Assembly (NCBI RefSeq): GCF_021347895.1
Contig: NC_067132.1
Span: 124,001-188,000, forward strand
DNA length: 64,000 nt
Reading direction: 5' to 3'
From: Acanthochromis polyacanthus
Lineage: Eukaryota; Chordata; Actinopteri; Pomacentridae
Shown one piece after another: positions 12,001 to 49,700 of this stretch. Numbering within the stretch: position 1 is the stretch's first letter; each line of letters starts with the position of its first letter. Made by a program: the position numbers and the translations under genes. The notes below the pieces were generated by a model that ran no database searches, was not told where the DNA came from, and was given only the letters and a program-made list of their open reading frames with translations.

Positions 12001-15000
12001 TGCGCTTAAAATGCTGGTCCTGAGCTGTAGTGCACAGTCTGGTCAAATATGCTGTCCATGCAATTCCAGAATACCTTCAACATCATCTGCCTTCATATAA
12101 ATCACATTTCAAGTCATTCTGTGGAAGAAATTTGTGTGTCAACAGTATGTTCACATTAATGCAGCCTTCATAATTTTTCTGCGCTTCAAATACTGGTCCT
12201 GAGCTGTAAAATGCACGATTTGATCAAAGACGCTGTACATGCAATTCCTTCTAACCAGAACATCTTAAACATCATTTGCCTTCATATAGATCACATGTCA
12301 AGTCATTCTGAATATGCAATTTGTGTGTCAACATTATGTTCACGTTAATGCAGCATTCATGATTTTTTCAAATGCTGCTCCAGAGTTTAAATGCACAGTT
12401 TGGTCAAATATGCTGTACATGCAATTTCGTCAAACCAGAACACCTTAAAAATGATTTGCCTTCATATAGCCTTCATTTCATGTCATTCTGAAGAAGAAAT
12501 TTAAATGTCAACATGAATTTCACGTTAATACAGGCAGCCTTCATGATTTTTCTGCTCTTAAATGCTGGTTCTGAGCTGTAATACACAGTTTTTTAAAATA
12601 TCCTTTCCATGCAATTTCTTGTAACCAGAACACCTTAAACATCATTTGCCTTCATATAGGTCACATTTCAGGTTATTCAGATGTTGAAATTTGTGTGTCA
12701 ACATTATGTTCTCGTTACTTCAGCCTTCATGATTTTTCTGCTCTTAAAATGCTGGTCCTGAGCTGTATTACACAGTTTTTTCAAATATCCTGTCCATGCT
12801 ATTGCTTCAAACCAGAGCATCTTAAACATCTTTTGCCTCCATAGAGCTAATATTTCAAGTCATTCCGAAGAAGGAATGTCTGTGTCAACATCATGTTTAC
12901 GTTAATGCAGCATTCATGATGTTTTCAAATGCTGCTCCAGAGTTTAAATGCACAGTGTGGTCAAATATGCTGTACATTCAATTTCTTCCAACCAGAACGT
13001 CTTAAACATCATTTGCCTTCATATAGATCACATTTCAGGTCATTCTGAAGAAGAAATTTGTGTGTCAACATTATGTTCACGTTACTTCAGCCTTCATGAT
13101 TTTTCTGCTCTTAAAATGCTGGTTCTGAGCTGTAATACACAGTTTTTTAAAATATCCTTTCCATGCAATTTCTTGTAACCAGAACACCTTAAACATCATT
13201 TGCCTTCATATAGATCACATTTCAGGTTATTCAGATGTTGAAATTTGTGTGTCAACATTATGTTCACGTTGCTGCAGCTTTCATGATGTTTCTGCTCTTA
13301 TAATGCTGGTCCTGAGCTATTTTGCGCAGTTTGGTGAAATATGCTGTACATGCAATTTCTTCACACCAGAACACCTTAAACATCATTTACCTTCATATAG
13401 ATCGCATTTCATGTCATTCTGAAGAAGAAATTTAAATGTCAACATGAATTTCACGTTAATACAGCCAGCCTTCATGATTTTTCTGCGCTTAAAATGCTGG
13501 TCCTGAGCTGTAGTGCACAGTCTGGTCAAATATGCTGTCCATGCAATTCCAGAATACCTTCAACATCATCTGCCTTCATATAAATCACATTTCAAGTCAT
13601 TCTGTGGAAGAAATTTGTGTGTCAACAGTATGTTCACATTAATGCAACCTTCATAATTTTTCTGCGCTTCAAATACTGGTCCTGAGCTGTAAAATGCACG
13701 ATTTGATCAAAGACGCTGTACATGCAAGTCCTTCTAACCAGAACATCTTAAACATCATTTGCCTTCATATAGATCACATGTCAAGTCATTCTGAAGATGC
13801 AATTTGTGTGTCAACATTATGTTCACGGTAATGCAGCATTCATGATTTTTTCAAATGCTGCTCCAGAGTTTAAATGCACAGTTTGGTCAAATATGCTGTA
13901 CATGCAATTTCGTCAAACCAGAACACCTTAAAAATCATTTGCCTTCATATAGCCTTCATTTCATGTCATTCTGAAGAAGAAATTTAAATGTCAACATGAA
14001 TTTCACGTTAATACAGCCAGCCTTCATGATTTTTCTGCTCTTAAATGCTGGTCCTGAGCTGTAATACACAGTTTTTTCAAATATCCTGTCCATGCAATTC
14101 CTTCAAACCAGAACACCTTGAACATCATTTGCCTTCATGTAGATCACATTTCAGGTCATTCTGAAGAAGAAATTTGTGTGTCAACATTATGTTCACGTTG
14201 CTGCAGCTTTCATGATTTGTCTGCTCTTATAATGCTGGTCCTGATCTTTTTTGCGCAGTTTGGTGAAATATGCTGTACATGCAATTTCTTCAAACCAGAA
14301 CACCTTGAACATCATTTGCCTTCAATATCGATCGCATTTCATGTCATTCTGAAGAAGAAATTTAAATGTCAACATGAATTTCACGTTAATACAGCCAGCC
14401 TTCATGATTTTTCTGCGCTTAAAATGCTGGTCCTGAGCTGTAATGCACTGTTTGGTCAAATATGCTCTCCATGCAATTCCTTCCAACCAGAACATCTTAA
14501 CCATCATTTACCTTAATATACATCACATTTCAAGTCATTCTGAATATGAAATTTGTGTGTCAACAGTATGTTCACATAACTTCAGCCTTCATGATTTTTC
14601 TGCGCTTAAAATGCTGGTCCTGGCTGTATTACACAGTTTTTTCAAATATCCTGTCCATGCTATTGCTTCAAACCAGAGCATCTTAAACATGTTTTGCCTC
14701 CATAGAGCTAATATTTCAAGTCATTCCGAAGAAGGAATGTCTGTGTCAACATCATGTTTACGTTAATGCAGCATTCATGATGTTTTCAAATGCTGCTCCA
14801 GAGTTTAAATGCACAGTTTGGTCAGATATGCTGTACATGCAATTTCTTCTAACCAGAACATCTTAAACATCATTTGCCTTCATATAGATCACATTTCATG
14901 TCATTCTGAAGAAGAAATTTAAATGTCAACATGAATTTCACGTTAATACAGCCAGCCTTCATAATTTTTCTGCGCTTAAAATGTTGTTCCTGAGCTGTAA

Positions 15001-17149
15001 TGCACTGTTTCGTCAAATATGCTGTCCATGCAATTTCTTCTAACCAGAACATCTTAAACATCACTTACCTTAATATAGATCACATTTCAGGTCATTCTGA
15101 AGAAGAAATTTGTGTGTCAACATTATGTTCACGTTGCTGCAGCTTTCATGATTTTTCTGCTCTTATAATGCTGGTCCTGATCTTTTTTGCGCAGTTTGGT
15201 GAAATATCCTGTCCATGCAATTTCTTGTAACCAGAACACCTTAAACATCATTTGCCTTCATATAGATCACATATCAGGTCATTCTGAAGAAGAAATTTGT
15301 GTGTCAACATTATGTTCACGTTGCTGCAGCTTTCATGATTTGTCTGCTCTTAAAATGCTGGTCCTGAGATCTATTACACAGTTTTTTCAAATATCCTGTC
15401 CATGCTATTGCTTCAAACCAGAGCATCTTAAACATCTTTTGCCTCCATAGAGCTAATATTTCAAGTCATTCCGAAGACGGAATGTCTGTGTCAACATCAT
15501 GTTAACGTTAATGCAGCATTCATGATGTTTTCAAATGCTGCTCCAGAGTTTAAATGCACAGTGTGGTCAAATATGCTGTACATGCAATTTCTTCTAACCA
15601 GAACGTCTTAAACATCATTTGCCTTCATATAGCCTTCATTTCAAGTCATTCTGAAGAAGAAATTTAAATGTCAACATGAATTTCACGTTAATACAGGCAG
15701 CCTTCATGATTTTTCTGCTCTTAAATGCTGGTCCTGAGCTGTAATACACAGTTTTTTCAAATATCCTGTCCATGCAATTCCTTCAAACCAGAACACCTTG
15801 AACATCATTTGCCGTCATATAGATCACATTTCAGGTCATTCTGAAGAAGAAATTTGTGTGTCAACATTATGTTCACGTTGCTGCAGCTTTCATGATTTGT
15901 CTGCTCTTATAATGCTGGTCCTGAGCTTTTTTGCGCAGTTTGGTGAAATATGCTGTACATGCAATTTCTTCAAACCAGAACACCTTAAACATCATTTGCC
16001 GTCATATAGATCGCATTTCATGTCGTTCTGAAGAAGAAATTTAAATGTCAACATGAATTTCACGTTAATACAGCCAGCCTTCATGATTTTTCTGCGCTTA
16101 AAATGCTGGTCCTGAGCTGTAATGCACAGTCTGGTCAAATATGCTGTCCATGCAATTCCAGAATACCTTCAACCATCATCTGCCTTCATATAAATCACAT
16201 TTCAAGTCATTCTGTGGAAGAAATTTGTGTGTCAACAGTATGTTCACATTAATGCAACCTTCATAATTTTTCTGCGCTTCAAATACTGGTCCTGAGCTGT
16301 AAAATGCACGATTTGATCAAAGACGCTGTACATGCAAGTCCTTCTAACCAGAACATCTTAAACATCATTTGTCTTCATATAGATCACATGTCAAGTCATT
16401 CTGAATATGCAATTTGTGTGTCAACATTATGTTCACGTTAATGCAGCATTCATGATTTTTTCAAATGCTGCTCCAGAGTTTAAATGCACAGTTTGGTCAA
16501 ATATGCTGTACATGCAATTTCGTCAAACCAGAACACCTTAAAAATCATTTGCCTTCATATAGCCTTCATTTCATGTCATTCTGAAGAAGAAATTTAAATG
16601 TCAACATGAATTTCACGTTAATACAGCCAGCCTTCATGATTTTTCTGCTCTTAAATGCTGGTCCTGAGCTGTAATACACAGTTTTTTCAAATATCCTGTC
16701 CATGCAATTCCTTCAAACCAGAACACCTTGAACATCATTTGCCTTCATGTAGATCACATTTCAGGTCATTCTGAAGAAGAAATTTGTGTGTCAACATTAT
16801 GTTCACGTTGCTGCAGCTTTCATGATTTGTCTGCTCTTATAATGCTGGTCCTGATCTTTTTTGCGCAGTTTGGTGAAATATGCTGTACATGCAATTTCTT
16901 CAAACCAGAACACCTTGAACATCATTTGCCTTCAATATCGATCGCATTTCATGTCATTCTGAAGAAGAAATTTAAATGTCAACATGAATTTCACGTTAAT
17001 ACAGCCAGCCTTCATGATTTTTCTGCGCTTAAAATGCTGGTCCTGAGCTGTAATGCACTGTTTGGTCAAATATGCTCTCCATGCAATTCCTTCCAACCAG
17101 AACATCTTAACCATCATTTACCTTAATATTGATCACATTTCAAGTCATT
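1..17149. repeat. AT-rich satellite array, ~187-bp monomer (left block)
   Basis: The whole stretch consists of diverged tandem copies of one unit. A clean unit, counted from one ctgcagctttcatg to the next, is 187 bp, and the landmark tatagatcacattt recurs at 187-bp steps with occasional shortened units (170 bp between 193 and 363). At least five monomer flavours can be told apart: ctgcagctttcatg with gcgcagtttggtg; acttcagccttcatg with attacacagttttttc; taatgcagcattcatg with gctgctccagagtt (the shortened type); taatacagccagccttc; and taatgcaaccttcataa with the gatcaaagacgctg segment. Multimers repeat irregularly: one conserved block ends at 2598, 3535, 4842 and 5967, giving spacings of 937, 1307 and 1125 bp, close to 5, 7 and 6 monomers. 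Another pair of blocks ending at 14516 and 17126 is 2610 bp apart, about 14 monomers. Open frames of 60-156 codons recur in it because the repeat has few stops; they change frame from monomer to monomer and resemble no known protein. Confidence 0.95.
14527..14539 (+). other. Empty target site (pre-insertion paralogue) of the retrotransposon
   Basis: The satellite around this point has the same left flank as the five retrotransposon copies (including the variants gctctccatgcaattcc and aaccatcatttacc). It then continues without interruption into the same right flank (ctgaatatgaaatttg, tcaacagtatgttcac, ataacttcagcc, and the shortened ctggtcctggctgtatt). The 13-bp word atttcaagtcatt occurs once here but on both sides of every inserted copy. 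This is therefore a monomer pair related by duplication to the target before insertion. It fixes the element boundaries and the target duplication to the base, apart from the usual ambiguity with the ATGG tail. Confidence 0.9.
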
Positions 17150-20100
17150 TCAGAAGACCTTGATGAGAACAATAAAAGGCAAAGCCGCTACCTCGCCCGG
17201 GATAGGGAAACCGGGGCCTTCCCCTGGAGCCAGACCTGGGGGGGGAGCTCGTACAGGAGCGTTTGGTGGCCGAGCCTTGGGGTCCCGTGGGGCTCGGTCG
17301 GGCAAAGCCCGAAAAAGTAACACGGGGCCACCGCCCAGTGGACCCACCACCTACAGGGCAGGAAGTCGGGGTCGGGTGCTATGCCCACCGGGCAGTAGGC
17401 AGGAGCGGGCGCCTGGGCGTGCCGCCCCCTGGTGGCGTAGACTAGCTCTGGGGACGTGGAACGTCACCTCACTGGCGGGGAAGGAACCTGAGCTGGTGCG
17501 GGAGGTGGAGCGATACCGGCTAGATATAGTTGGGCTCGCCTCCACGGACAGCAAGGGTTCTGGAACCAGAATCCTGGAGAGGGGTTGGACTCTCTCCTAC
17601 TCCGGAGTTGCCCAGGGAGAGAGGCGCCGGGCGGGTGTGGGGATACTCACAAGCCCCCGGCTGAGCGCCGCTTTGTTGGAGTTCTCCCCGGAGAACGAGA
17701 GGGTCGCCTCTCTGCGACTTCGTGTTGCAGGGGGGAAAACTCTGACTGTTGTCTGTGCTTATGCGCCGAACAGCAGTTCAGAGTATTCGGCCTTCTTGGA
17801 GTCTCTGGGTGGGGTCCTGGAAGGGGTACCGCCCGGGGATTCCATAGTTCTCCTGGGAGACTTCAACGCTCACGTGGGCAACGATGGAGAAACCTGGAGG
17901 GGGGTGATTGGGAGGAACGGCCTGCCCGATCTGAACCCGAGTGGTGTTTTTTTACTGGACTTCTGTGCTAGTCATGGTTTGGCCGTAACAAACACCATGT
18001 TCGAGCATAAGGTTGCTCATAAGTGTACTTGGTACCAGAGCACCTTAGGCCAAAGGTCGATGATCGACTTTATAGTCATATCGTCAGACCTGCGGCCGTA
18101 TGTCTTGGACACTCGGGTGAAGAGAGGTGCAGAGCTGTCAACTGATCACCACCTGGTGGTGAGTTGGATCCGATGGCGGGGAAGACTGCCGGACAGACCT
18201 GGTAAACCCAAACGTGTAGTGCGGGTGAACTGGGAACGTCTGGCGGAGGACCCTGTCCGTAGGGTTTTCAACTCCCACCTCCGGAAGAGTTTCTCCTGCA
18301 TCCCGGGGGAGGTTGGGGACATGGATTCTGAGTGGTCCATGTTCAAAGCCTCCATTGCAGAAGCAGCTGTTAGGAGCTGTGGTCTGAAGGTCACTGGTGC
18401 CTGTCGTGGCGGCAATCCAAGGACCCGCTGGTGGACACCAGCGGTGAGGGAGGCCGTCAGGCTGAAAAAGGAGACTTATCAAGCCTGGTTGGCTCGGGGG
18501 TCTCCTGAAGCAGCTGACAGGTACCGGCTGGCCAAAAGGGCGGCAGCTGCGGCAGTGGTGGAAGCTAAAACTCGGGTGTGGGAGGAGTTCGGGGAGGCCA
18601 TGGAGAAGGACTTTCGATCGACCTCGGGGAAGTTCTGGCAAACCATTCGACGCCTCAGGAAGGGGAAGCAAGGCTTCGCCCAGGCTGTGTATGGTCGGGG
18701 TGGAGAACTGTTGACCCGTACTGGGGATATCGTCGGGCGGTGGAAAGAGCACTTCGAGGAACTCCTTAACCCGGTAAACACGTCCTCTATGGAGGAGGCA
18801 GAGCCTGAAGACTCGGGAGTATCTGCGTCCATATCCGTGGCAGAGGTCGCCGAAGTAGTTAAAAAGCTCCTCGGTGGCAAGGCGCCAGGTGTGGACGAGA
18901 TTCGCCCTGAGATGCTGAAGGCTCTGGACATTGTTGGACTGTCTTGGTTGACACGTCTATGCAATGTCGCGTGGGCATCGGGTACAGTACCTGGGGAGTG
19001 GCAGACCGGGGTGGTGGTCCCTATTTTTAAAAAGGGGGATCGGAGAGTGTGTGCCAACTATCGCGGTATCACACTTCTCAGCCTCCCCGGGAAAGTTTAC
19101 TCTAGGGTGCTGGAAGGGAGGATCCGACCGATAGTCGAACCTCGGATTCAGGAGGAGCAATGCGGATTCCGTCCCGGTCGTGGAACAGCAGACCAGCTCT
19201 TTACCCTTGCGGAGCTGCTGAGGGGGTCATGGGAGTATGACCTGCCAGTCTACATGTGCTTTGTAGATCTGGAGAAGGCCTACGACCGTGTCCCCCGAGG
19301 GGCTTTGTGGGGGGCACTGCGGGAGTATGGGGTCCAAGGCTCGTTGTTACGGGCCGTTCGGTCCCTGTACAACCAAAGTGAGAGCTGTGTCCGCATACTC
19401 GGCATTAAGTCAGACATGTTTCCGGTGGGTGTTGGACTCCGCCAGGGCTGCCCCTTGTCTCCAATCCTGTTTGTGGTTTTCATGGACAGGATTTCAAGGC
19501 GCAGTCGTGGTGGGGAGGGTTTTCGGTTTGGGAGCCTCAGGATCGCTTCGCTGCTTTTTGCAGATGATGTGGTTTTGTTGGCATCCTCAGACCGTGACCT
19601 CCGGCACGCACTGGAGCGGTTTGCAGCCGAGTGTGAAGCGGCAGGGATGCGGATCAGCACCTCCAAGTCCGAGGCCATGGTTCTCTGCCGGAAACCGGTG
19701 GAGTGTTTCCTCCGGGTTGGGGGGGAGTTGCTTCCCCAAGCGAAGGAGTTTAAGTATCTCGGGATCTTGTTCACGAGTGATGGGAAAATGGAGCGGGAGA
19801 TGGACAGGCGGATTGGTGCGGCGTCAGCAGTAATGCGGGCGTTGTACCGAACCGTCGTGGTGAAGAGGGAGCTGAGCCGTAAGGCGAAACTCTCGATTTA
19901 CCAGTCCATCTACGTTCCAACCCTCACCTATGGTCATGAGCTTTGGGTAGTGACCGAAAGAACAAGATCGCGGATACAAGCGGCCGAAATGAGCTTCCTC
20001 CGTAGGGTGGCTGGGCTCAGCCTTAGAGATAGGGTGAGGAGCTCAGACATCCGGAGGGAGCTCAGAGTAGAGCCGCTGCTCCTTCGCATCGAAAGGAGCC

Positions 20101-20371
20101 AGTTGAGGTGGTTTGGCCACCTGATTCGGATGCCTCCGGGGAGACTTCCTCTGGAGGTTTTCCGAGCACGTCCGTCTGAGAGGAGACCCCGGGGCAGACC
20201 CAGAACTCGCTGGAGAGATTATATATCTCGTCTGGCCTGGGAACGCCTCGGGATCCCCCAGGAAGAGCTGGAAAGTGTCGCTGGGGGGAGGGACGTTTGA
20301 AACGACCTGCTTCGCCTGCTGGCCCCGTGACCCGGCCCCGGATAAGCGGAGGAAAATGGATGGATGGATGG
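17150..20371 (+). mobile_element. Rex3-like (RTE clade) non-LTR retrotransposon, copy 1, full length
   Basis: This is a 3,222-bp GC-rich element that stands out sharply from the AT-rich satellite. It begins tcagaagaccttgatgag directly after a 13-bp target duplication (17,137-17,149) and ends in an (ATGG)n tail followed by the second copy of the duplication (20,372-20,384). The single ORF encodes an apurinic-type endonuclease followed by reverse transcriptase, and the 3' UTR is only about 70 bp; this compact layout is usual for the RTE clade. The RT region around 19,000-19,020 matches, from memory, the conserved stretch used for Rex3 PCR primers in fish, and a GATG-type tail is also a Rex3 trait. 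It is the leftmost of five copies at an identical site and the only one with an unbroken ORF. Confidence 0.93.
17163..20300 (+). CDS. Endonuclease/reverse transcriptase polyprotein of Rex3-like retrotransposon (intact)
   Basis: The predicted protein has 1,045 residues and would make the target nick and prime cDNA synthesis on the nicked DNA. The only early in-frame ATG is at 17,163 (a TTG lies one codon upstream); its context is weak, and residues 1 to about 95, rich in G, P, R and A, may be translated leader rather than a folded domain. Endonuclease: TWN near 98-100, GDFNAHVG with D233 and N235, MIDF at 300-303, and STDHH with D328 and H329. Reverse transcriptase: [28 protein letters not shown] with catalytic D702, [10 protein letters not shown], and FADD with D801 and D802. 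The C-terminal part includes [10 protein letters not shown] and an arginine-rich [11 protein letters not shown] segment. Copy 1 differs from all the others in the endonuclease (STDS instead of STHS, D129) and at ILERGW versus ILEKGW. Function is inferred from intact motifs; activity is untested. Confidence 0.9.
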
Positions 20372-23300
20372 ATTTCAAGTCATTCTGAATATGAAATTTG
20401 TGTGTCAACAGTATGTTCACATAACTTCAGCCTTCATGATTTGTCTGCTCTTAAAATGCTGGTCCTGGCTGTATTACACAGTTTTTTCAAATATCCTGTC
20501 CATGCTATTGCTTCAAACCAGAGCATCTTAAACATCTTTTGCCTCCATAGAGCTAATATTTCAAGTCATTCCGAAGAAGGAATGTCTGTGTCAACATCAT
20601 GTTTACGTTAATGCAGCATTCATGATGTTTTCAAATGCTGCTCCAGAGTTTAAATGCACAGTGTGGTCAAATATGCTGTACATGCAATTTCTTCTAACCA
20701 GAACATCTTAAACATCATTTGCCTTCATATAGATCACATTTCAGGTCATTCTGAAGAAGAAATTTGTGTGTCAACATTATGTTCACGTTGCTGCAGCTTT
20801 CGTGATTTTTCTGCTCTTATAATGCTGGTCCTGAGCTTTTTTGCGCAGTTTGGTCAAATATGCTGTACATGCAATTTCTTCAAACCAGAACACCTGAAAC
20901 ATCATTTGCTTTCAAATAGATCGCATTTCATGTCGTTCTGAAGAAGAAATTTAAATGTCAACATGAATTTCACGTTAATACAGCCAGCCTTCATGATTTT
21001 TCTGCGCTTAAAATGCTGGTCCTGAGCTGTAATGCACAGTCTGGTCAAATATGCTGTCCATGCAATTCCAGAATACCTTCAACATCATCTGCCTTCATAT
21101 AAATCACATTTCAAGTCATTCTGTGGAAGAAATTTGTGTGTCAACAGTATGTTCACATTAATGCAACCTTCATAATTTTTCTGCGCTTCAAATACTGGTC
21201 ATGAGCTGTAAAATGCACGATTTGATCAAAGACGCTGTACATGCAATTCCTTCTAACCAGAACATCTTAAACATCATTTGCCTTCATATAGATCACATGT
21301 CAAGTCATTCTGAAAATGCAATTTGTGTGTCAACATTTTGTTCACGTTAATGCAGCATTCATGATTTTTTCAAATGCTGCTCCAGAGTTTAAATGCACAG
21401 TTTGGTCAAATATGCTGTACATGCAATTTCTTCAAACCAGAACACCTTAAACATCATTTGCCTTCATATAGCCTTCATTTCAGGTCATTCTGAAGAAGAA
21501 ATTTAAATGTCAACATGAATTTCACGTCAATACAGGCAGCCTTCATGATTTATCTGCTCTTAAATGCTGGTCCTGAGCTGTAATACACAGTTTTTTCAAA
21601 TATCCTGTCCATGCAATTCCTTCAAACCAGAACACCTTGAACATCATTTGCCTTCATATAGATCACATTTCAGGTCATTCTGAAGAAGAAATTTGTGTGT
21701 CAACATTATGTTCACGTTGCTGCAGCTTTCGTGATTTTTCTGCTCTTATAATGCTGGTCCTGATCTTTTTTGCGCAGTTTGGTGAAATATGCTGTACATG
21801 CAATTTCTTCTAACCAGAACACCTTAAACATCATTTGCCTTCATATAGATCGCATTTCATGTCATTCTGAAGAAGAAATTTAAATGTCAACATGAATTTC
21901 ACGTTAATACAGCCAGCCTTCATGATTTTTCTGCGCTTAAAATGCTGGTCCTGAGCTGTAATGCACAGTCTGGTCAAATATGCTGTCCATGCAATTCCTT
22001 CTAACCAGAGCATCTTAAACATCATTTACCTTAATATAGATCACATTTCAAGTCATTCTGAATATGAATTTGTGTGTCAACATTTTGTTCACGTTAATGC
22101 AGCATTCTTGTTTTTTTCAAATTCTGCTCCAGAGTTTAAATGCACAGTTTGGTCAAATATGCTGTACATGCAATTTCTTCAAACCAGAACACCTTAAACA
22201 TCATTTGCCTTCATATAGATCGCATTTCATGTCATTCTGAAGAAGAAATTTAAATGTCAACATGAATTTCACGTTAATACAGGCAGCCTTCATGATTTTT
22301 CTGCTCTTAAATGCTGGTCCTGAGCTGTAATACACAGTTTTTTCAAATATCCTGTCCATGCAATTCCTTCAAACCAGAACACCTTGAACATCATTTGCCT
22401 TCATATAGATCACATATCAGGTCATTCTGAAGAAGAAATTTGTGTGTCAACATTATGTTCACGTTGCTGCAGCTTTCATGATTTGTCTGCTCTTAAAATG
22501 CTGGTCCTGAGATCTATTACACAGTTTTTTCAAATATCCTGTCCATGCTATTGCTTCAAACCAGAGCATCTTAAACATCTTTTGCCTCCATAGAGCTAAT
22601 ATTTCAAGTCATTCCGAAGAAGGAATGTCTGTGTCAACATCATGTTTACGTTAATGCAGCATTCATGATGTTTTCAAATGCTGCTCCAGAGTTTAATGTA
22701 CAGTGTGGTCAAATATGCTGTACATGCAATTTCTTCTAACCAGAACATCTTAAACATCATGTGCCTTCATATGGATCGCATTTCATGTCATTCTGAAGAA
22801 GAAATTTAAATGTCAACATGAATTTCACGTTAATACAGCCAGCCTTCATGATTTTTCTGCTCTTAAAATGCTGGTCCTGAGCTGTAATGCACTGTTTGGT
22901 CAAATATGCTCTCCATGCAATTCCTTCTAACCAGAACATCTTAAACATCATTTACCTTAATATTGATCACATTTCAGGTTATTCAGATGTTGAAATTTGT
23001 GTGTCAACATTATGTTCACGTTACTTCAGCCTTCATGATTTTCCTGCTCTTAAAATGCTGGTTCTGAGCTGTAATACACAGTTTTTTCAAATATCCATTC
23101 CATGCAATTTCTTGTAACCAGAACACCTTAAACATCATTTGCCTTCATATAGATCACATTTCAGGTTATTCAGATGTTGAAATTTGTGTGTCAACATTAT
23201 GTTCTCGTTACTTCAGCCTTCATGATTTTTCTGCTCTTAAAATACTGGTCCTGAGCTGTATTACACAGTTTTTTCAAATATCCTGTCCATGCTATTGCTT

Positions 23301-24106
23301 CAAACCAGAGCATCTTAAACATCTTTTGCCTCCATCGAGCAAATATTTCAAGTCATTCCGAAGAAGGAATGTCTGTGTCAACATCATGTTTACGTTAATG
23401 CAGCATTCATGATGTTTTCAAATGCTGCTCCAGAGTTTAAATGCACAGTGTGGTCAAATATGCTGTACATGCAATTTCTTCTAACCAGAACATCTTAAAC
23501 ATCATTTGCCTTCATATAGATCACATTTCAGGTCATTCTGAAGAAGAAATTTGTGTGTCAACATGAATTTCACGTTAATACAGGCAGCCTTCATGATTTT
23601 TCTGCTCTTAAATGCTGGTCCTGAGCTGTAATACACAGTTTTTTCAAATATCCTGTCCATGCAATTCCTTCAAACCAGAACACCTTGAACATCATTTGCC
23701 TTCATATAGATCACATTTCAGGTCATTCTGAAGAAGAAATTTGTGTGTCAACATTATGTTCACGTTGCTGCAGCTTTCATGATTTGTCTGCTCTTATAAT
23801 GCTGGTCCTGATCTTTTTTGCGCAGTTTGGTGAAATATGCTGTACATGCAATTTCTTCAAACCAGAACACCTTGAACATCATTTGCCTTCAATATTGATC
23901 GCATTTCATGTCATTCTGAAGAAGAAATTTAAATGTCAACATGAATTTCACGTTAATACAGCCAGCCTTCATGATTTTTCTGCGCTTAAAATGCTGGTCC
24001 TGAGCTGTAATGCACTGTTTGGTCAAATATGCTCTCCATGCAATTCCTTCCAACCAGAACATCTTAACCATCATTTACCTTAATATTGATCACATTTCAA
24101 GTCATT
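20372..24106. repeat. Satellite spacer between retrotransposon copies 1 and 2 (3,735 bp)
   Basis: This is the same ~187-bp satellite. It starts with the right-hand target duplication and the diagnostic ataacttcagcc/ctggctgtatt monomers and ends with the gctctcc/aaccatc left-flank monomer of the next copy. The monomer order matches the spacer between copies 3 and 4 (3,745 bp) almost throughout, including the gatcaaagacgctg monomer and the tcaatacaggcagcc variant at about 21,527. No gene is seen. Confidence 0.93.
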
Positions 24107-27100: not shown

Positions 27101-27326
27101 TTCCTCTGGAGGTTTTCCGAGCACGTCCGTCTGGGAGGAGACCCCGGGGCAGACCCAGAACTCGCTGGAGAGATTATATATCTCGTCTGGCCTGGGAACG
27201 CCTCGGGATCCCCCAGGAAGAGCTGGAAAGTGTCGCTGGGGGGAGGGACGTTTGAAACGACCTGCTTCGCCTGCTGGCCCCGTGACCCGGCCCCGGATAA
27301 GCGGAGGAAAATGGATGGATGGATGG
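24107..27326 (+). mobile_element. Rex3-like retrotransposon, copy 2, full length
   Basis: This 3,220-bp copy has the same start, (ATGG)n tail and 13-bp flanking duplication (24,094-24,106 and 27,327-27,339) as copy 1. It shares with copies 3-5, against copy 1, the changes STHS, ILEKGW, PSGRRP and ctctcccggg near the 5' end. It lacks the extra T found in copies 3-5. The same insertion site shows that it was duplicated with the satellite rather than retrotransposed independently. Confidence 0.93.
24120..27255 (+). pseudogene. Retrotransposon EN/RT polyprotein, copy 2, two 1-bp frameshifts
   Basis: Aligned by eye to copy 1, the reading frame is lost twice in the endonuclease half. One G is missing from the run after gttgca at about 24,686-24,691 (five G instead of six), and one A is missing at about 24,946 (gtaacaacacc instead of gtaacaaacacc). 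From 24,952 to the stop at 27,255 the frame is open again and contains the end of the endonuclease (MIDF, STDHH) and the complete reverse transcriptase with FVDLEKAYD and FADD. A product starting at 24,952 would lack the first half of the endonuclease. The G-run lesion could be a sequencing error; the A-run lesion less obviously so. Confidence 0.87.
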
Positions 27327-35600: not shown

Positions 35601-36359
35601 TCAAGTCATTCCGAAGAAGGAATGTCTGTGTCAACATCATGTTTACGTTAATGCAGCATTCATGATGTTTTCAAATGCTGCTCCAGAGTTTAAATGCACA
35701 GTGTGGTCAAATATGCTGTACATGCAATTTCTTCTAACCAGAACATCTTAAACATCATTTGCCTTCATATAGATCACATTTCAGGTCATTCTGAAGAAGA
35801 AATTTGTGTGTCAACATGAATTTCACGTTAATATAGGCAGCCTTCATGATTTTTCTGCTCTTAAATGCTGGTCCTGAGCTGTAATACACAGTTTTTTCAA
35901 ATATCCTGTCCATGCAATTCCTTCAAACCAGAACACCTTGAACATCATTTGCCTTCATATAGATCACATTTCAGGTCATTCTGAAGAAGAAATTTGTGTG
36001 TCAACATTATGTTCACGTTGCTGCAGCTTTCATGATTTGTCTGCTCTTATAATGCTGGTCCTGATCTTTTTTGCGCAGTTTGGTGAAATATGCTGTACAT
36101 GCAATTTCTTCAAACCAGAACACCTTGAACATCATTTGCCTTCAATATCGATCGCATTTCATGTCATTCTGAAGAAGAAATTTAAATGTCAACATGAATT
36201 TCACGTTAATACAGCCAGCCTTCATGATTTTTCTGCGCTTAAAATGCTGGTCCTGAGCTGTAATGCACTGTTTGGTCAAATATGCTCTCCATGCAATTCC
36301 TTCCAACCAGAACATCTTAACCATCATTTACCTTAATATTGATCACATTTCAAGTCATT
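32615..36359. repeat. Satellite spacer between retrotransposon copies 3 and 4 (3,745 bp)
   Basis: This satellite runs closely parallel to the copy 1-2 spacer. A variant ttcatgttaatacag appears at about 34,140 and recurs after copy 4, and the variant atataggcagcc appears at about 35,831, just upstream of copy 4, and recurs at about 42,979 upstream of copy 5. No gene is seen. Confidence 0.93.
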
Positions 36360-39300: not shown

Positions 39301-39582
39301 CGAAAGGAGCCAGTTGAGGTGGTTTGGCCACCTGATTCGGATGCCTCCGGGGAGACTTCCTCTGGAGGTTTTCCGAGCACGTCCGTCTGGGAGGAGACCC
39401 CGGGGCAGACCCAGAACTCGCTGGAGAGATTATATATCTCGTCTGGCCTGGGAACGCCTCGGGATCCCCCAGGAAGAGCTGGAAAGTGTCGCTGGGGGGA
39501 GGGACGTTTGAAACGACCTGCTTCGCCTGCTGGCCCCGTGACCCGGCCCCGGATAAGCGGAGGAAAATGGATGGATGGATGG
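36360..39582 (+). mobile_element. Rex3-like retrotransposon, copy 4, full length
   Basis: This 3,223-bp copy has its target duplication at 36,347-36,359 and 39,583-39,595 and the same termini as the other copies. It shares the T8 run with copies 3 and 5, and its flanking satellite shares additional variants with copy 5 (atataggcagcc upstream and a mosaic monomer near 39,870 downstream). This makes 4 and 5 the most recently separated pair. Confidence 0.93.
36373..39511 (+). pseudogene. Retrotransposon EN/RT polyprotein, copy 4, one frameshift
   Basis: It carries the same extra T as copy 3 (run 37,157-37,164), so the 5' frame stops at 37,182 and a second frame runs 37,151-39,511. It has a private tryptophan-to-cysteine change just after the STDHHLVV motif of the endonuclease (VVSCIRW instead of VVSWIRW). 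Reverse transcriptase motifs [19 protein letters not shown] and FADD are unchanged. Confidence 0.87.
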
Positions 39583-42500
39583 ATTTCAAGTCATTCTGAA
39601 TATGAAATTTGTGTGTCAACAGTATGTTCACATAACTTCAGCCTTCATGATTTGTCTGCTCTTAAAATGCTGGTCCTGGCTGTATTACACAGTTTTTTCA
39701 AATATCCTGTCCATGCTATTGCTTCAAACCAGAGCATCTTAAACATCTTTTGCCTCCATAGAGCTAATATTTCAAGTCATTCCGAAGAAGGAATGTCTGT
39801 GTCAACATCATGTTTACGTTAATGCAGCATTCATGATGTTTTCAAATGCTGCTCCAGAGTTTAAATGCACAGTCTGGTCAAATATGCTGTACATGCAATT
39901 CCAGAATACCTTCAACATCATCTGCCTTCATATAAATCACATTTCAAGTCATTCTGTGGAAGAAATTTGTGTGTCAACAGTATGTTCACATTAATGCAAC
40001 CTTCATAATTTTTCTGCGCTTCAAATACTGGTCTTGAGCTGTAAAATGCACGATTTGATCAAAGACGCTGTACATGCAATTCCTTCTAACCAGAACATCT
40101 TCAACATCATTTGCCTTCATATAGATCACATGTCAAGTCATTCTGAATATGCAATTTGTGTGTCAACATTATGTTCACGTTAATGCAGCATTCATGATTT
40201 TTTCAAATGCTGCTCCAGAGTTTAAATGCACAGTGTGGTCAAATATGCTGTACATGCAATTTCTTCTAACCAGAACATCTTAAACATCATTTGCCTTCAT
40301 ATAGATCACATTTCAGGTCATTCTGAAGAAGAAATTTGTGTGTCAACATTATGTTCACGTTGCTGCAGCTTTCGTGATTTTTCTGCTCTTATAATGCTGG
40401 TCCTGAGCTTTTTTGCGCAGTTTGGTGAAATATGCTGTACATGCAATTTCTTCTAACCAGAACACCTTAAACATCATTTGCCTTCATATAGATCGCATTT
40501 CATGTCATTCTGAAGAAGAAATTTAAATGTCAACATGAATTTCATGTTAATACAGCCAGCCTTCATGATTTTTCTGCGCTTAAAATGCTGGTCCTGAGCT
40601 GTAATGCACAGTCTGGTCAAATATGCTGTCCATGCAATTCCTTCTAACCAGAGCATCTTAAACATCATTTACCTTAATATAGATCACATTTCAAGTCATT
40701 CTGAATATGAAATTTGTGTGTCAACATTTTGTTCACGTTAATGCAGCTTTCATGATTTGTCTGCTCTTATAATGCTGGTCCTGAGCTTTTTTACGCAGTT
40801 TGGTGAAATATGCTGTACATGCAATTTCTTCAAACCAGAACACCTTAAACATCATTTGCCGTCATATAGATCGCATTTCATGTCGTTCTGAAGAAGAAAT
40901 TTAAATGTCAACATGACTTTCACGTTAATACAGCCAGCCTTCATGATTTTTCTGCGCTTAAAATGCTCTTCCTGAGCTGTAATGCACTAATTCGTCAAAT
41001 ATGCTGTCCATGCAAATTTCTTCTAACCAGAACATCTTAAACATCACTTACCTTAATATAGATCACATTTCAGGTCATTCTGAAGAAGAAATTTGTGTGT
41101 CAACATTATGTTCACGTTGCTGCAGCTTTCATGATTTTTCTGCTCTTATAATGCTGGTCCTGAGCTTTTTTGCGCAGTTTGGTGAAATATCCTGTCCATG
41201 CAATTTCTTCAAACCAGAACACCTTAAACATCATTTGCCTTCATATAGATCGCATTTCATGTCATTCTGAAGAAGAAATTTAAATGTCAACATGAATTTC
41301 ATGTTAATACAGCCAGCCTTCATGATTTTTCTGCGCTTAAAATGCTGGTCCTGAGCTGTAATGCACAGTCTGGTCAAATATGCTGTCCATGCAATTCCTT
41401 CTAACCAGAGCATCTTAAACATCATTTACCTTAATATAGATCACATTTCAAGTCATTCTGAATATGAAATTTGTGTGTCAACATTTTGTTCACGTTAATG
41501 CAGCATTCTTGATTTTTTCAAATTCTGCTCCAGAGTTTAAATGCACAGTTTGGTCAAATATGCTGTACATGCAATTTCTTCAAACCAGAACACCTTAAAC
41601 ATCATTTGCCTTCATATAGATCGCATTTCATGTCATTCTGAAGAAGAAATTTAAATGTCAACATGAATTTCACGTTAATACAGGCAGCCTTCATGATTTT
41701 TCTGCTCTTAAATGCTGGTCCTGAGCTGTAATACACAGTTTTTTCAAATATCCTGTCCATGCAATTCCTTCAAACCAGAACACCTTGAACATCATTTGCC
41801 TTCATATAGATCACATATCAGGTCATTCTGAAGAAGAAATTTGTGTGTCAACATTATGTTCACGTTGCTGCAGCTTTCATGATTTGTCTGCTCTTAAAAT
41901 GCTGGTCCTGAGATCTATTACACAGTTTTTTCAAATATCCTGTCCATGCTATTGCTTCAAACCAGAGCATCTTAAACATCTTTTGCCTCCATAGAGCTAA
42001 TATTTCAAGTCATTCCGAAGAAGGAATGTCTGTGTCAACATCATGTTTACGTTAATGCAGCATTCATGATGTTTTCAAATGCTGCTCCAGAGTTTAATGC
42101 ACAGTGTGGTCAAATATGCTGTACATGCAATTTCTTCTAACCAGAACATCTTAAACATCATGTGCCTTCATATGGATCGCATTTCATGTCATTCTGAAGA
42201 AGAAATTTAAATGTCAACATGAATTTCACGTTAATACAGCCAGCCTTCATGATTTTTCTGCTCTTAAAATGCTGGTCCTGAGCTGTAATGCACTGTTTGG
42301 TCAAATATGCTCTCCATGCAATTCCTTCTAACCAGAACATCTTAAACATCATTTACCTTAATATTGATCACATTTCAGGTTATTCAGATGTTGAAATTTG
42401 TGTGTCAACATTATGTTCACGTTACTTCAGCCTTCATGATTTTCCTGCTCTTAAAATGCTGGTTCTGAGCTGTAATACACAGTTTTTTCAAATATCCATT

Positions 42501-43507
42501 CCATGCAATTTCTTGTAACCAGAACACCTTAAACATCATTTGCCTTCATATAGATCACATTTCAGGTTATTCAGATGTTGAAATTTGTGTGTCAACATTA
42601 TGTTCTCGTTACTTCAGCCTTCATGATTTTTCTGCTCTTAAAATACTGGTCCTGAGCTGTATTACACAGTTTTTTCAAATATCCTGTCCATGCTATTGCT
42701 TCAAACCAGAGCATCTTAAACATCTTTTGCCTCCATCGAGCAAATATTTCAAGTCATTCCGAAGAAGGAATGTCTGTGTCAACATCATGTTTACGTTAAT
42801 GCAGCATTCATGATGTTTTCAAATGCTGCTCCAGAGTTTAAATGCACAGTGTGGTCAAATATGCTGTACATGCAATTTCTTCTAACCAGAACATCTTAAA
42901 CATCATTTGCCTTCATATAGATCACATTTCAGGTCATTCTGAAGAAGAAATTTGTGTGTCAACATGAATTTCACGTTAATATAGGCAGCCTTCATGATTT
43001 TTCTGCTCTTAAATGCTGGTCCTGAGCTGTAATACACAGTTTTTTCAAATATCCTGTCCATGCAATTCCTTCAAACCAGAACACCTTGAACATCATTTGC
43101 CTTCATATAGATCACATTTCAGGTCATTCTGAAGAAGAAATTTGTGTGTCAACATTATGTTCACGTTGCTGCAGCTTTCATGATTTGTCTGCTCTTATAA
43201 TGCTGGTCCTGATCTTTTTTGCGCAGTTTGGTGAAATATGCTGTACATGCAATTTCTTCAAACCAGAACACCTTGAACATCATTTGCCTTCAATATCGAT
43301 CGCATTTCATGTCATTCTGAAGAAGAAATTTAAATGTCAACATGAATTTCACGTTAATACAGCCAGCCTTCATGATTTTTCTGCGCTTAAAATGCTGGTC
43401 CTGAGCTGTAATGCACTGTTTGGTCAAATATGCTCTCCATGCAATTCCTTCCAACCAGAACATCTTAACCATCATTTACCTTAATATTGATCACATTTCA
43501 AGTCATT
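39583..43507. repeat. Satellite spacer between retrotransposon copies 4 and 5 (3,925 bp, rearranged)
   Basis: The downstream flank differs from copies 1-3. At about 39,870-39,905 a monomer that begins like the type after copy 1 switches to the gcaattccagaatacc type, removing about two monomers (ccagaatacc lies 319 bp after copy 4 but 696 bp after copy 1). Elsewhere monomers are gained: blocks around 40,474-40,668 and 41,231-41,425 are duplicates 757 bp apart. No gene is seen. Confidence 0.92.
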
Positions 43508-46500
43508 TCAGAAGACCTTGATGAGAACAATAAAAGGCAAAGCCGCTACCTCTCCCGGGATAGGGAAACCGGGGCCTTCCCCTGGAGCCAGACCTGGGGG
43601 GGAGCTCGTACAGGAGCGTTTGGTGGCCGAGCCTTGGGGTCCCGTGGGGCTCGGTCGGGCAAAGCCCGAAAAAGTAACACGGGGCCACCGCCCAGTGGAC
43701 CCACCACCTACAGGGCAGGAAGTCGGGGTCGGGTGCTATGCCCACCGGGCAGTAGGCAGGAGCGGGCGCCTGGGCGTGCCGCCCCCTGGTGGCGTAGACT
43801 AGCTCTGGGGACGTGGAACGTCACCTCACTGGCGGGGAAGGAACCTGAGCTGGTGCGGGAGGTGGAGCGATACCGGCTAGATATAGTTGGGCTCGCCTCC
43901 ACGCACAGCAAGGGTTCTGGAACCAGAATCCTGGAGAAGGGTTGGACTCTCTCCTACTCCGGAGTTGCCCAGGGAGAGAGGCGCCGGGCGGGTGTGGGGA
44001 TACTCACAAGCCCCCGGCTGAGCGCCGCTTTGTTGGAGTTCTCCCCGGAGAACGAGAGGGTCGCCTCTCTGCGACTTCGTGTTGCAGGGGGGAAAACTCT
44101 GACTGTTGTCTGTGCTTATGCGCCGAACAGCAGTTCAGAGTATTCGGCCTTCTTGGAGTCTCTGGGTGGGGTCCTGGAAGGGGTACCGCCCGGGGATTCC
44201 ATAGTTCTCCTGGGAGACTTCAACGCTCACGTGGGCAACGATGGAGAAACCTGGAGGGGGGTGATTGGGAGGAACGGCCTGCCCGATCTGAACCCGAGTG
44301 GTGTTTTTTTTACTGGACTTCTGTGCTAGTCATGGTTTGGCCGTAACAAACACCATGTTCGAGCATAAGGTTGCTCATAAGTGTACTTGGTACCAGAGCA
44401 CCTTAGGCCAAAGGTCGATGATCGACTTTATAGTCATATCGTCAGACCTGCGGCCGTATGTCTTGGACACTCGGGTGAAGAGAGGTGCAGAGCTGTCAAC
44501 TGATCACCACCTGGTGGTGAGTTGGATCCGATGGCGGGGAAGACTGCCGGACAGACCTGGTAAACCCAAACGTGTAGTGCGGGTGAACTGGGAACGTCTG
44601 GCGGAGGACCCTGTCCGTAGGGTTTTCAACTCCCACCTCCGGAAGAGTTTCTCCTGCATCCCGGGGGAGGTTGGGGACATGGATTCTGAGTGGTCCATGT
44701 TCAAAGCCTCCATTGCAGAAGCAGCTGTTAGGAGCTGTGGTCTGAAGGTCACTGGTGCCTGTCGTGGCGGCAATCCAAGGACCCGCTGGTGGACACCAGC
44801 GGTGAGGGAGGCCGTCAGGCTGAAAAAGGAGACTTATCAAGCCTGGTTGGCTCGGGGGTCTCCTGAAGCAGCTGACAGGTACCGGCTGGCCAAAAGGGCG
44901 GCAGCTGCGGCAGTGGTGGAAGCTAAAACTCGGGTGTGGGAGGAGTTCGGGGAGGCCATGGAGAAGGACTTTCGATCGACCTCGGGGAAGTTCTGGCAAA
45001 CCATTCGACGCCTCAGGAAGGGGAAGCAAGGCTTCGCCCAGGCTGTGTATGGTCGGGGTGGAGAACTGTTGACCCGTACTGGGGATATCGTCGGGCGGTG
45101 GAAAGAGCACTTCGAGGAACTCCTTAACCCGGTAAACACGTCCTCTATGGAGGAGGCAGAGCCTGAAGACTCGGGAGTATCTGCGTCCATATCCGTGGCA
45201 GAGGTCGCCGAAGTAGTTAAAAGCTCCTCGGTGGCAAGGCGCCAGGTGTGGACGAGATTCGCCCTGAGATGCTGAAGGCTCTGGACATTGTTGGACTGTC
45301 TTGGTTGACACGTCTATGCAATGTCGCGTGGGCATCGGGTACAGTACCTGGGGAGTGGCAGACCGGGGTGGTGGTCCCTATTTTTAAAAAGGGGGATCGG
45401 AGAGTGTGTGCCAACTATCGCGGTATCACACTTCTCAGCCTCCCCGGGAAAGTTTACTCTAGGGTGCTGGAAGGGAGGATCCGACCGATAGTCGAACCTC
45501 GGATTCAGGAGGAGCAATGCGGATTCCGTCCCGGTCGTGGAACAGCAGACCAGCTCTTTACCCTTGCGGAGCTGCTGAGGGGGTCATGGGAGTATGACCT
45601 GCCAGTCTACATGTGCTTTGTAGATCTGGAGAAGGCCTACGACCGTGTCCCCCGAGGGGCTTTGTGGGGGGCACTGCGGGAGTATGGGGTCCAAGGCTCG
45701 TTGTTACGGGCCGTTCGGTCCCTGTACAACCAAAGTGAGAGCTGTGTCCGCATACTCGGCATTAAGTCAGACATGTTTCCGGTGGGTGTTGGACTCCGCC
45801 AGGGCTGCCCCTTGTCTCCAATCCTGTTTGTGGTTTTCATGGACAGGATTTCAAGGCGCAGTCGTGGTGGGGAGGGTTTTCGGTTTGGGAGCCTCAGGAT
45901 CGCTTCGCTGCTTTTTGCAGATGATGTGGTTTTGTTGGCATCCTCAGACCGTGACCTCCGGCACGCACTGGAGCGGTTTGCAGCCGAGTGTGAAGCGGCA
46001 GGGATGCGGATCAGCACCTCCAAGTCCGAGGCCATGGTTCTCTGCCGGAAACCGGTGGAGTGTTTCCTCCGGGTTGGGGGGGAGTTGCTTCCCCAAGCGA
46101 AGGAGTTTAAGTATCTCGGGATCTTGTTCACGAGTGATGGGAAAATGGAGCGGGAGATGGACAGGCGGATTGGTGCGGCGTCAGCAGTAATGCGGGCGTT
46201 GTACCGAACCGTCGTGGTGAAGAGGGAGCTGAGCCGTAAGGCGAAACTCTCGATTTACCAGTCCATCTACGTTCCAACCCTCACCTATGGTCATGAGCTT
46301 TGGGTAGTGACCGAAAGAACAAGATCGCGGATACAAGCGGCCGAAATGAGCTTCCTCCGTAGGGTGGCTGGGCTCAGCCTTAGAGATAGGGTGAGGAGCT
46401 CAGACATCCGGAGGGAGCTCAGAGTAGAGCCGCTGCTCCTTCGCATCGAAAGGAGCCAGTTGAGGTGGTTTGGCCACCTGATTCGGATGCCTCCGGGGAG

Positions 46501-46728
46501 ACTTCCTCTGGAGGTTTTCCGAGCACGTCCGTCTGGGAGGAGACCCCGGGGCAGACCCAGAACTCGCTGGAGAGATTATATATCTCGTCTGGCCTGGGAA
46601 CGCCTCGGGATCCCCCAGGAAGAGCTGGAAAGTGTCGCTGGGGGGAGGGACGTTTGAAACGACCTGCTTCGCCTGCTGGCCCCGTGACCCGGCCCCGGAT
46701 AAGCGGAGGAAAATGGATGGATGGATGG
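43508..46728 (+). mobile_element. Rex3-like retrotransposon, copy 5, full length
   Basis: This 3,221-bp copy has its target duplication at 43,495-43,507 and 46,729-46,741. It shares T8 with copies 3 and 4 and has two further private 1-bp losses. The downstream satellite repeats the mosaic junction seen after copy 4. Confidence 0.93.
43521..46657 (+). pseudogene. Retrotransposon EN/RT polyprotein, copy 5, three 1-bp frameshifts
   Basis: This is the most damaged copy. There is one G fewer in the run at 43,596-43,602 (seven instead of eight), the shared extra T at 44,304-44,311, and one A fewer at 45,219-45,222 (four instead of five), just before the [13 protein letters not shown] segment of the reverse transcriptase. 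The last change cuts the reverse transcriptase from the upstream part; the frame from 45,248 to 46,657 still holds all RT catalytic motifs. All three lesions are in homopolymers. Confidence 0.87.
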
Positions 46729-49700
46729 ATTTCAAGTCATTCTGAATATGAAATTTGTGTGTCAACAGTATGTTCACATAACTTCAGCCTTCATGATTTG
46801 TCTGCTCTTAAAATGCTGGTCCTGGCTGTATTACACAGTTTTTTCAAATATCCTGTCCATGCTATTGCTTCAAACCAGAGCATCTTAAACATCTTTTGCC
46901 TCCATAGAGCTAATATTTCAAGTCATTCCGAAGAAGGAATGTCTGTGTCAACATCATGTTTACGTTAATGCAGCATTCATGATGTTTTCAAATGCTGCTC
47001 CAGAGTTTAAATGCACAGTCTGGTCAAATATGCTGTACATGCAATTCCAGAATACCTTCAACATCATCTGCCTTCATATAAATCACATTTCAAGTCATTC
47101 TGTGGAAGAAATTTGTGTGTCAACAGTATGTTCACATTAATGCAACCTTCATAATTTTTCTGCGCTTCAAATACTGGTCTTGAGCTGTAAAATGCACGAT
47201 TTGATCAAAGACGCTGTACATGCAATTCCTTCTAACCAGAACATCTTCAACATCATTTGCCTTCATATAGATCACATGTCAAGTCATTCTGAATATGCAA
47301 TTTGTGTGTCAACATTATGTTCACGTTAATGCAGCATTCATGATTTTTTCAAATGCTGCTCCAGAGTTTAAATGCACAGTGTGGTCAAATATGCTGTACA
47401 TGCAATTTCTTCTAACCAGAACATCTTAAACATCATTTGCCTTCATATAGATCACATTTCAGGTCATTCTGAAGAAGAAATTTGTGTGTCAACATTATGT
47501 TCACGTTGCTGCAGCTTTCGTGATTTTTCTGCTCTTATAATGCTGGTCCTGAGCTTTTTTGCGCAGTTTGGTGAAATATGCTGTACATGCAATTTCTTCT
47601 AACCAGAACACCTTAAACATCATTTGCCTTCATATAGATCGCATTTCATGTCATCCTGAAGAAGAAATTTAAATGTCAACATGAATTTCACGTTAATACA
47701 GCCAGCCTTCATGATTTTTCTGCGCTTCAAATGCTGGTCCTGAGCTGTAATGCACAGTCTGGTCAAATATGCTGTCCATGCAATTCCTTCTAACCAGAGC
47801 ATCTTAAACATCATTTACCTTAATATAGATCACATTTCAAGTCATTCTGAATATGAAATTTGTGTGTCAACATTTTGTTCACGTTAATGCAGCATTCTTG
47901 ATTTTTTCAAATGCTGCTCCAGAGTTTAAATGCACAGTTTGGTCAAATATGCTGTACATGCAATTTCTTCAAACCAGAACACCTTAAACATCATTTGCCT
48001 TCATATAGATCGCATTTCATGTCATTCTGAAGAAGAAATTTAAATGTCAACATGAATTTCACGTTAATACAGGCAGCCTTCAGGATTTTTCTGCTCTTAA
48101 ATGCTGGTCCTGAGCTGTAATACACAGTTTTTTCAAATATCCTGTCCATGCAATTCCTTCAAACCAGAACACCTTGAACATCATTTGCCTTCATATAGAT
48201 CACATATCAGGTCATTCTGAAGAAGAAGTTTGTGTGTCAACATTATGTTCACGTTGCTGCAGCTTTCATGATTTGTCTGCTCTTAAAATGCTGGTCCTGA
48301 GATCTATTACACAGTTTTTTCAAATATCCTGTCCATGCTATTGCTTCAAACCAGAGCATCTTAAACATCTTTTGCCTCCATAGAGCTAATATTTCAAGTC
48401 ATTCCGAAGAAGGAATGTCTGTGTCAACATCATGTTTACGTTAATGCAGCATTCATGATGTTTTCAAATGCTGCTCCAGAGTTTAATGCACAGTGTGGTC
48501 AAATATGCTGTACATGCAATTTCTTCTAACCAGAACATCTTAAACATCATGTGCCTTCATATGGATCGCATTTCATGTCATTCTGAAGAAGAAATTTAAA
48601 TGTCAACATGAATTTCACGTTAATACAGGCAGCCTTCATGATTTTTCTGCTCTTAAAATGCTGGTCCTGAGCTGTAATGCACTGTTTGGTCAAATATGCT
48701 GTACATGCAATTTCTTCAAACCAGAACACCTTAAACATCATTTGCCTTCATATAGCCTTCATTTCATGTCATTCTGAAGAAGAAATTTAAATGTCAACAT
48801 GAATTTCACGTTAATACAGGCAGCCTTCATGATTTTTCTGCTCTTAAATGCTGGTCCTGAGCTGTAATACACAGTTTTTTCAAATATCCTGTCCATGCAA
48901 TTCCTTCAAACCAGAACACCTTGAACATCATTTGCCTTCATATAGATCACATTTCAGGTCATTCTGAAGAAGAAATTTGTGTGTCAACATTATGTTCACG
49001 TTGCTGCAGCTTTCATGATTTGTCTGCTCTTATAATGCTGGTCCTGAGCTTTTTTACGCAGTTTGGTGAAATATGCTGTACATGCAATTTCTTCAAACCA
49101 GAACACCTTAAACATCATTTGCCGTCATATAGATCGCATTTCATGTCGTTCTGAAGAAGAAATTTAAATGTCAACATGACTTTCACGTTAATACAGCCAG
49201 CCTTCATGATTTTTCTGCGCTTAAAATGCTCTTCCTGAGCTGTAATGCACTAATTCGTCAAATATGCTGTCCATGCAAATTTCTTCTAACCAGAACATCT
49301 TAAACATCACTTACCTTAATATAGATCACATTTCAGGTCATTCTGAAGAAGAAATTTGTGTGTCAACATTATGTTCACGTTGCTGCAGCTTTCATGATTT
49401 TTCTGCTCTTATAATGCTGGTCCTGAGCTTTTTTGCGCAGTTTGGTGAAATATCCTGTCCATGCAATTTCTTCAAACCAGAACACCTTAAACATCATTTG
49501 CCTTCATATAGATCGCATTTCATGTCGTTCTGAAGAAGAAATTTAAATGTCAACATGAATTTCACGTTAATACAGCCAGCCTTCATGATTTTTCTGCGCT
49601 TAAAATGCTGGTCCTGAGCTGTAATGCACAGTCTGGTCAAATATGCTGTCAATGCAATTCCAGAATACCTTCAACATCATCTGCCTTCATATACATCACA

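Follow-up and report, generated by a model that had tools for sequence, protein, structure and literature searches.

A satellite array in the pomacentrid fish Acanthochromis polyacanthus carries five full-length copies of one retrotransposon, a long interspersed nuclear element (LINE), all at the same base and all with the same target duplication. The array lies in the window analysed here, the whole stretch of 64,000 nucleotides (contig NC_067132.1, positions 124,001 to 188,000; coordinates below are those of the window, and all LINE and satellite features are on the plus strand). To judge from the sequence, a single LINE insertion was very probably amplified by recombination of the satellite. 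Coincidence of site and duplication is insufficient alone to establish this, because a target-specific LINE would give both. What favours one insertion followed by amplification is a combination of evidence: equivalent targets that are empty; a common monomer order with near-identical flanks; a chimeric junction monomer, s; and nested changes. The original prediction for this DNA had reached the same conclusion, which stands; its argument, that independent insertions would have different sites and duplications, does not suffice.

Five copies at one insertion base

The element is a non-long-terminal-repeat retrotransposon with an apurinic-type endonuclease, a target duplication and a 3' repeat tail. 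Its five copies (17150..20371, 24107..27326, 29392..32614, 36360..39582, and 43508..46728) are 3,220-3,223 bp long and lie in one orientation; in BLASTN comparisons, the other four are 99.78-99.81% identical to copy 1. With copy 1 as the BLASTN query, no partial LINE copy was found in the window, and no further LINE in the 17 kb left of the amplified block or right of it to the window end. Start-to-start spacings are exactly 6957, 5285, 6968, and 7148, as had been predicted, and the satellite between successive LINEs (boxes included) measures 3735, 2065, 3745, and 3925 bp, in agreement with the predicted 2.1-3.9 kb of monomers.

Every copy ends in an (ATGG)n tail and has ATTTCAAGTCATT on both sides. 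The 5' junction ATTTCAAGTCATT/TCAGAAGACC is present in all five copies, and the 3' junction, where the tail meets ATTTCAAGTCATT, matches that of copy 1 exactly in each, so that BLASTN and junction matches together bear out the claim of five full-length, same-orientation copies sharing one insertion base and one duplication. The outermost boxes are at 17137..17149 (upstream of copy 1) and 46729..46741 (downstream of copy 5). The duplication had been called an identical 13 bp: its identity is confirmed, and its length is either 12 or 13 bp, because the first A could be part of the (ATGG)n tail. By itself the 13-bp box is uninformative, because it opens most monomers (172 matches with at most one mismatch, versus 0.36 expected in shuffles); the wider context is informative.

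That context was read by cutting the monomers at the box and grouping them at 3%, which gave 204 segments in 64 groups. In the monomer strings below, letters are group labels and a slash marks the LINE; U is the upstream array, and D1 to D5 are the satellite segments 3' of copies 1 to 5. The LINE-free upstream satellite (1..17149; Tandem Repeats Finder and segmentation) is divided into 92 segments as far as 17136, followed by the first target duplication, and it ends ...efRgTKL/. Segmentation and monomer alignment define the satellite of four complete units: unit 1, jEnfRgTeopTlqLrDEsKL plus the duplication box (20372..24106); unit 2, jEnfRgTesKL, which is shorter than unit 1 by nine monomers (27327..29391); unit 3, jEnfRgTeotulqLrDEsKL (32615..36359); and unit 4, jvRweotueopTlqLrDEsKL (39583..43507). 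The satellite right of copy 5 (D5, 46742..54356) starts jvRwe as in unit 4, continues opTlq, and then diverges (x...), without a LINE. The amplified block thus runs from ~17137 to 46741, plus the shared satellite to its right; no special meaning was found for 14113, where the original prediction had placed its start.

Equivalent targets without a LINE

The target was defined as the 38 bp that span the insertion point (25 bp on its left, 13 bp on its right), and is identical in all five copies. The plus strand of the array also contains this target uninterrupted: 11 exact occurrences, four with one mismatch, two with two, and one with three. The 11 exact empty targets (nine upstream, two right of copy 5) all lie outside the KL/jE context, and all five insertions lie within it. 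The same duplication and the same monomer context thus accompany every copy; differences in either had been named beforehand as evidence against a single insertion.

A sixth KL/jE site, at 14527..14539, has two mismatches in the 38-bp target and no LINE. This uninterrupted counterpart of the insertion junction had been noted in the original prediction. It exists, and it is a paralogue of the pre-insertion site, not the exact allele: compared with D1-D3, there are two mismatches in the left monomer, and three and two in the first two right monomers. Taking 22 sites (17 empty with at most two mismatches, plus the five filled), the random probability that five fills fall among the six KL/jE sites is 0.0002, a rough figure because the comparison was chosen post hoc and the sites, themselves copies, were counted as independent. 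R2-like behaviour would fill equivalent sites regardless of wider context; within the window this is not what is seen.

A chimeric monomer at the join

The monomers immediately upstream of the LINE separate copy 1 from the rest. Copy 1 is preceded by g-T-K-L, and copies 2-5 by strings ending s-K-L. Monomer T, the third upstream of copy 1 (16568..16757), is identical to the T at the empty site (13958). Monomer s lies at 23525..23714 in unit 1 and recurs at 28809, 35778, and 42926; this junction monomer of the duplication is present before all four derived copies and absent from the founder copy 1, which has T instead.

The two halves of s have different affinities. Compared with the T of copy 1, s has changes at positions 7, 29, 30, 31, 60, and 182 in D1 and D2, and one more, at 57, in D3 and D4. 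For D1 this amounts to four differences in the first 40 bp (7, 29, 30, 31) and two in the 150 bp beyond. Six monomers of the upstream array follow an E. Five of them carry exactly those first 40 bp, k at 14893 being the one that does not match, and s is itself preceded by D-E in D1, D3, and D4. Monomer s therefore looks like an in-register join between a post-D-E monomer and T, the parental type for its right part, in which the change of parent falls between positions 31 and 41: a putative fossil crossover.

Further in-register chimeras coincide with deletions. For each, all other normal-length monomers were tried in pairs and the closest two-part fit was kept, so small gains are possible by chance. 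Monomer v (E/f; 39769), at a deletion junction, has 14 differences from its best single parent and one from the two-part fit; w (g/E-like; 40130), likewise at a deletion junction, improves from eight to none. Both are common to units 4 and 5, where they mark losses. At the nine-monomer deletion of unit 2, a probable e/E chimera (28622..28808; break at positions 118-155) shows a small gain, from three differences to one. Monomers n and k were also considered as chimeras; their two-part fits are not clean, leaving three differences, and they were not used. Breaks inside monomers and in register fit what homologous unequal exchange would leave.

Common monomer order, and divergence compared

The units share long runs of monomers in common order. 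The longest are 13 (D1/D4), nine (D1/D3 and D3/D4), eight (D1/D2 and D2/D3), and six (D1/D5 and D4/D5). As controls, the upstream array repeats itself over at most six monomers, units match the upstream array over at most five, and no run above three arose when the labels of two 20-letter strings were shuffled 1000 times. The first seven monomers are identical across D1, D2, and D3. Of the 20 monomers aligned between D1 and D3, 18 have at most one base difference and the other two represent a block exchange; over five comparisons (D1/D3, D1/D2, D2/D3, D3/D4, and D1/D4), 65 of 77 aligned pairs differ by 0-1 base. For D4 and the first 24 of the 40 D5 monomers, the figure is ten of 15.

Substitutions in same-label flank and in LINE are indistinguishable (p at least 0.44) in five of the ten pairs: D1/D3, 6 of 3353 versus 6 of 3222 (0.18% versus 0.19%); D3/D4, 3 of 2812 versus 3 of 3223 (0.11% versus 0.09%); D1/D2, 5 of 2051 versus 5 of 3220; D2/D3, 4 of 2051 versus 3 of 3220; and D2/D4, 1 of 935 versus 2 of 3220.

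Sequence changes within the LINEs suggest an order. Four positions, 46, 398, 432, and 3030, set copy 1 apart from all the others. Polarity was set with 60 homologues, the first 60 with 900-1110 residues among the 120 protein matches listed. At 432, copies 2-5 have A, which encodes the rarer K (5 of 60 homologues), and copy 1 encodes R (54 of 60); at 398 and 3030 it is copy 1 that departs from most homologues (which have H in 55 of 60 and G in 54 of 60, respectively). An additional T at 797 is common to copies 3-5. Together, 432, 797, and the v/w markers give the nesting 1,(2,(3,(4,5))), which is the same as the order along the DNA.

Mechanism and alternatives

The unit structure, the common order, the chimeras, and the nested changes are features of the array as it stands; from them a history can be proposed. 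A fish-type LINE with endonuclease and reverse transcriptase in one frame would have inserted once, between L and j, making a duplication of 12-13 bp. In an in-register unequal exchange, T (the third monomer 5' of the LINE) would then have paired with the post-D-E monomer that is 18th on the 3' side in unit 1. The product would be a tandem duplication of the LINE plus ~3.7 kb of satellite, with chimera s at the join, and the founder would keep T at its left edge, matching what is seen. Repeated exchange could have built the five copies as a ladder that starts from a founder-like copy 1 on the left, and later exchanges within the satellite part would have shortened or rearranged single units. 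We infer unequal crossing-over in preference to rolling-circle reinsertion or break-induced copying, and likewise the order of events; the route is less certain than the amplification.

Several observations sit less comfortably with this history. The polarity at 432 is not absolute, because K occurs in 5 of 60 homologues, and the T at 797, like the other LINE indels, lies in a single-base run and could be a sequencing error. Nesting fails for the otu and opT modules (otu in unit 3, opT in units 1 and 5, both in unit 4), so the ladder is blurred by recombination. Some unit pairs have short common runs only: two monomers in D2/D5 and D3/D5, three in D2/D4. Flank exceeds LINE divergence in the other five of the ten pairs: D1/D4, 12 of 2802 versus 5 of 3222 (p 0.05); and, at p of 0.01 or less, D1/D5, 10 of 1488 versus 4 of 3220; D2/D5, 6 of 565 versus 0 of 3218, with three monomers paired; D3/D5, 7 of 1119 versus 2 of 3221; and D4/D5, 6 of 1841 versus 1 of 3221. 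(For D5, the first ten monomers were used.) Because of these five pairs, simple whole-unit duplication would need conversion or edge effects in addition, and same-label divergence is biased low because the labels are 3% clusters. The last unit has had a more complex history, in which it probably exchanged sequence with, or was converted by, other monomers at the array edge. In BLAST of whole flanks, three pairs score 96.6-98.7% and the other seven give no match (with a 96%, 300-bp filter). Flanks older than the LINEs (1-3% substitutions in those three pairs versus ~0.2%), which would point to repeated insertion, were considered on this basis and set aside: monomer-by-monomer alignment shows that a good part of the signal is one of exchanged or missing blocks, although the last unit is still more diverged.

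How far do other explanations account for these data? A target-specific LINE, as R2 is for ribosomal DNA, could have made five independent insertions into a pre-existing higher-order repeat. One base, one duplication, and an identical 38-bp target in five of five copies are what it predicts, and the five pairs with excess flank divergence are as expected of older flanks. Against this stand the same 38 bp left empty at the 11 exact, four one-mismatch, and two two-mismatch sites; the small chance, on post hoc reckoning, of random fills concentrating in KL/jE; the contrast between T at copy 1 and s at the other copies; and the like identity of flank and LINE in the remaining five pairs. Taken together, these make repeated targeted insertion very improbable.

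The two other alternatives are not fully exclusive of a single insertion with later amplification. Units might have been excised as a circle, copied by rolling-circle replication, and reinserted, instead of arising by stepwise unequal exchange. This route also yields head-to-tail, near-identical units with one common junction monomer s, but nesting in array order and in-register internal deletions fit stepwise exchange more simply; an initial circle is possible, and the circular route as a whole we regard as unlikely. Part of the copy number might instead be an assembly artefact, if haplotypes were left unjoined or the same reads were used at two places. The near-identity of units 1 and 3 over 18 of 20 monomers and the position of the LINE indels in single-base runs are both as an artefact would have it. 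Yet each unit has a length or monomer structure of its own, substitutions distinguish nine of the ten LINE pairs (all but copies 2 and 5, 0 of 3218), and LINE-free satellite lies at both block edges, so that an artefact of this kind seems decidedly unlikely. Consensus errors on a smaller scale are possible, because the private LINE deletions fall in single-base runs. There are four of these one-base deletions (positions 92, 581, 841, and 1712), the run at 841 being only three A.

The composite higher-order repeat of about 7 kb announced in the original prediction is a local expansion, with five LINEs and four complete units, and not an established satellite family, because the block is small and bounded within the window.

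The LINE protein and its relatives

Copy 1 has an uninterrupted frame (17163-20300), 1045 codons from the first ATG, in which endonuclease and reverse transcriptase lie together; PF03372, PF14529, and PF00078 all score above cut-off. The frames of copies 2-5 are broken by one-base indels in runs of at least three identical bases; these may be real or may be consensus errors.

A protein search scored 7993 candidates and found 631 matches, of which 120 were listed. Among the matches listed, many carry no organism label, and those labelled are all from fish except one labelled Vibrio parahaemolyticus. The closest of those listed, at 84-87%, have unlabelled sources; fish-labelled proteins reach 82% (Cyclopterus lumpus, over 71% of the query). 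Names on the listed matches conflict: LINE-1, R2DM, jockey, and craniofacial development protein 2. The closest solved structures by sequence are LINE-1 ORF2p, then R2. In a viral contig collection the LINE protein pattern had two matches, neither of which encodes a relative. We take the element to resemble the teleost RTE/Rex3-like LINEs, which presumably share its single frame with both domains and its short 3' repeat tail, a likeness of organization.

The array and its surroundings

Tandem Repeats Finder follows the ~187-bp monomers from the window's left end to ~54,356. The array is interrupted by the five LINE copies and by one ~370-bp stretch of other sequence (~52,190-52,560), which sits inside a 507-bp segment and was given no family. 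Within the amplified block, composition alternates sharply because the LINE copies have ~57% G+C and the satellite ~36% (17150-46728, 2-kb windows). Scans of the window with Rfam (gathering threshold) and for tRNAs found nothing. A 29-base satellite pattern matched no stretch in viral, bacterial, and archaeal contig collections, which says little given the nature of those collections. The EcoRI centromeric repeat of sparid fishes is also 187 bp (PMC12731029), a likeness to the present array in monomer length.

Right of the array are pieces of other elements. Separate short frames between 57576 and 60305 on the minus strand, which carry a Helitron_like_N domain and a fragment of a PIF1-like helicase, are probably what is left of a decayed Helitron. 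A short minus-strand frame at 61605-62021 has a DDE_3 transposase domain, presumably of Tc1/mariner type. Imperfect repeats of 34-58 nt, both inverted and direct, cluster at 55212-55800 and are possibly a non-autonomous DNA transposon.

Known systems and meaning

Mobile-element insertions within amplified satellite units have precedents in the bovine 1.711 satellites, with their inserted sequences, and in human DYZ2, with Alu; the Arabidopsis ATHILA elements are another. The bovine and DYZ2 repeats are long-established and present in very many copies, in contrast to five in a bounded block here. Literature searches on bovine satellites and ATHILA did not turn up papers on these two among the results listed (for the bovine satellites, 20 of 8,999). 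A closer parallel comes from human centromeres, where duplicated L1HS insertions are described in alpha-satellite arrays, D2Z1 on chromosome 2 among them (PMC12350169). There too a LINE was inserted into a satellite array and duplicated; the present case differs in its host, a fish, in its LINE family, and in its 3.2-kb body with one frame. A review of how satellites and transposons are related (PMC12628747) mentions both satellite arrays invaded by transposons and satellites that arose from them. The process seen in the fish array is thus a known one, with human centromeres as an earlier example, and the case is real, well preserved, and unusually clear. Its junction monomer is directly readable because all five copies lie in one 30-kb stretch.

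Satellite recombination might even provide LINEs with a second, transposition-independent means of multiplication, in which the array would serve as a nursery where potential source copies arise locally. This is a speculative and improbable idea; if true, the array would keep copying a near-intact source element (the 1045-codon frame of copy 1) inside repeat-rich DNA.

In otherwise repetitive DNA the LINE is a unique tag. Because five units carry it and the chimeric junction can be read, one can reconstruct without a pedigree in what order and register the exchanges took place. The array is accordingly a clean natural case in which to test unequal crossing-over against rolling-circle models, and it can serve in populations as a marker of satellite expansion.

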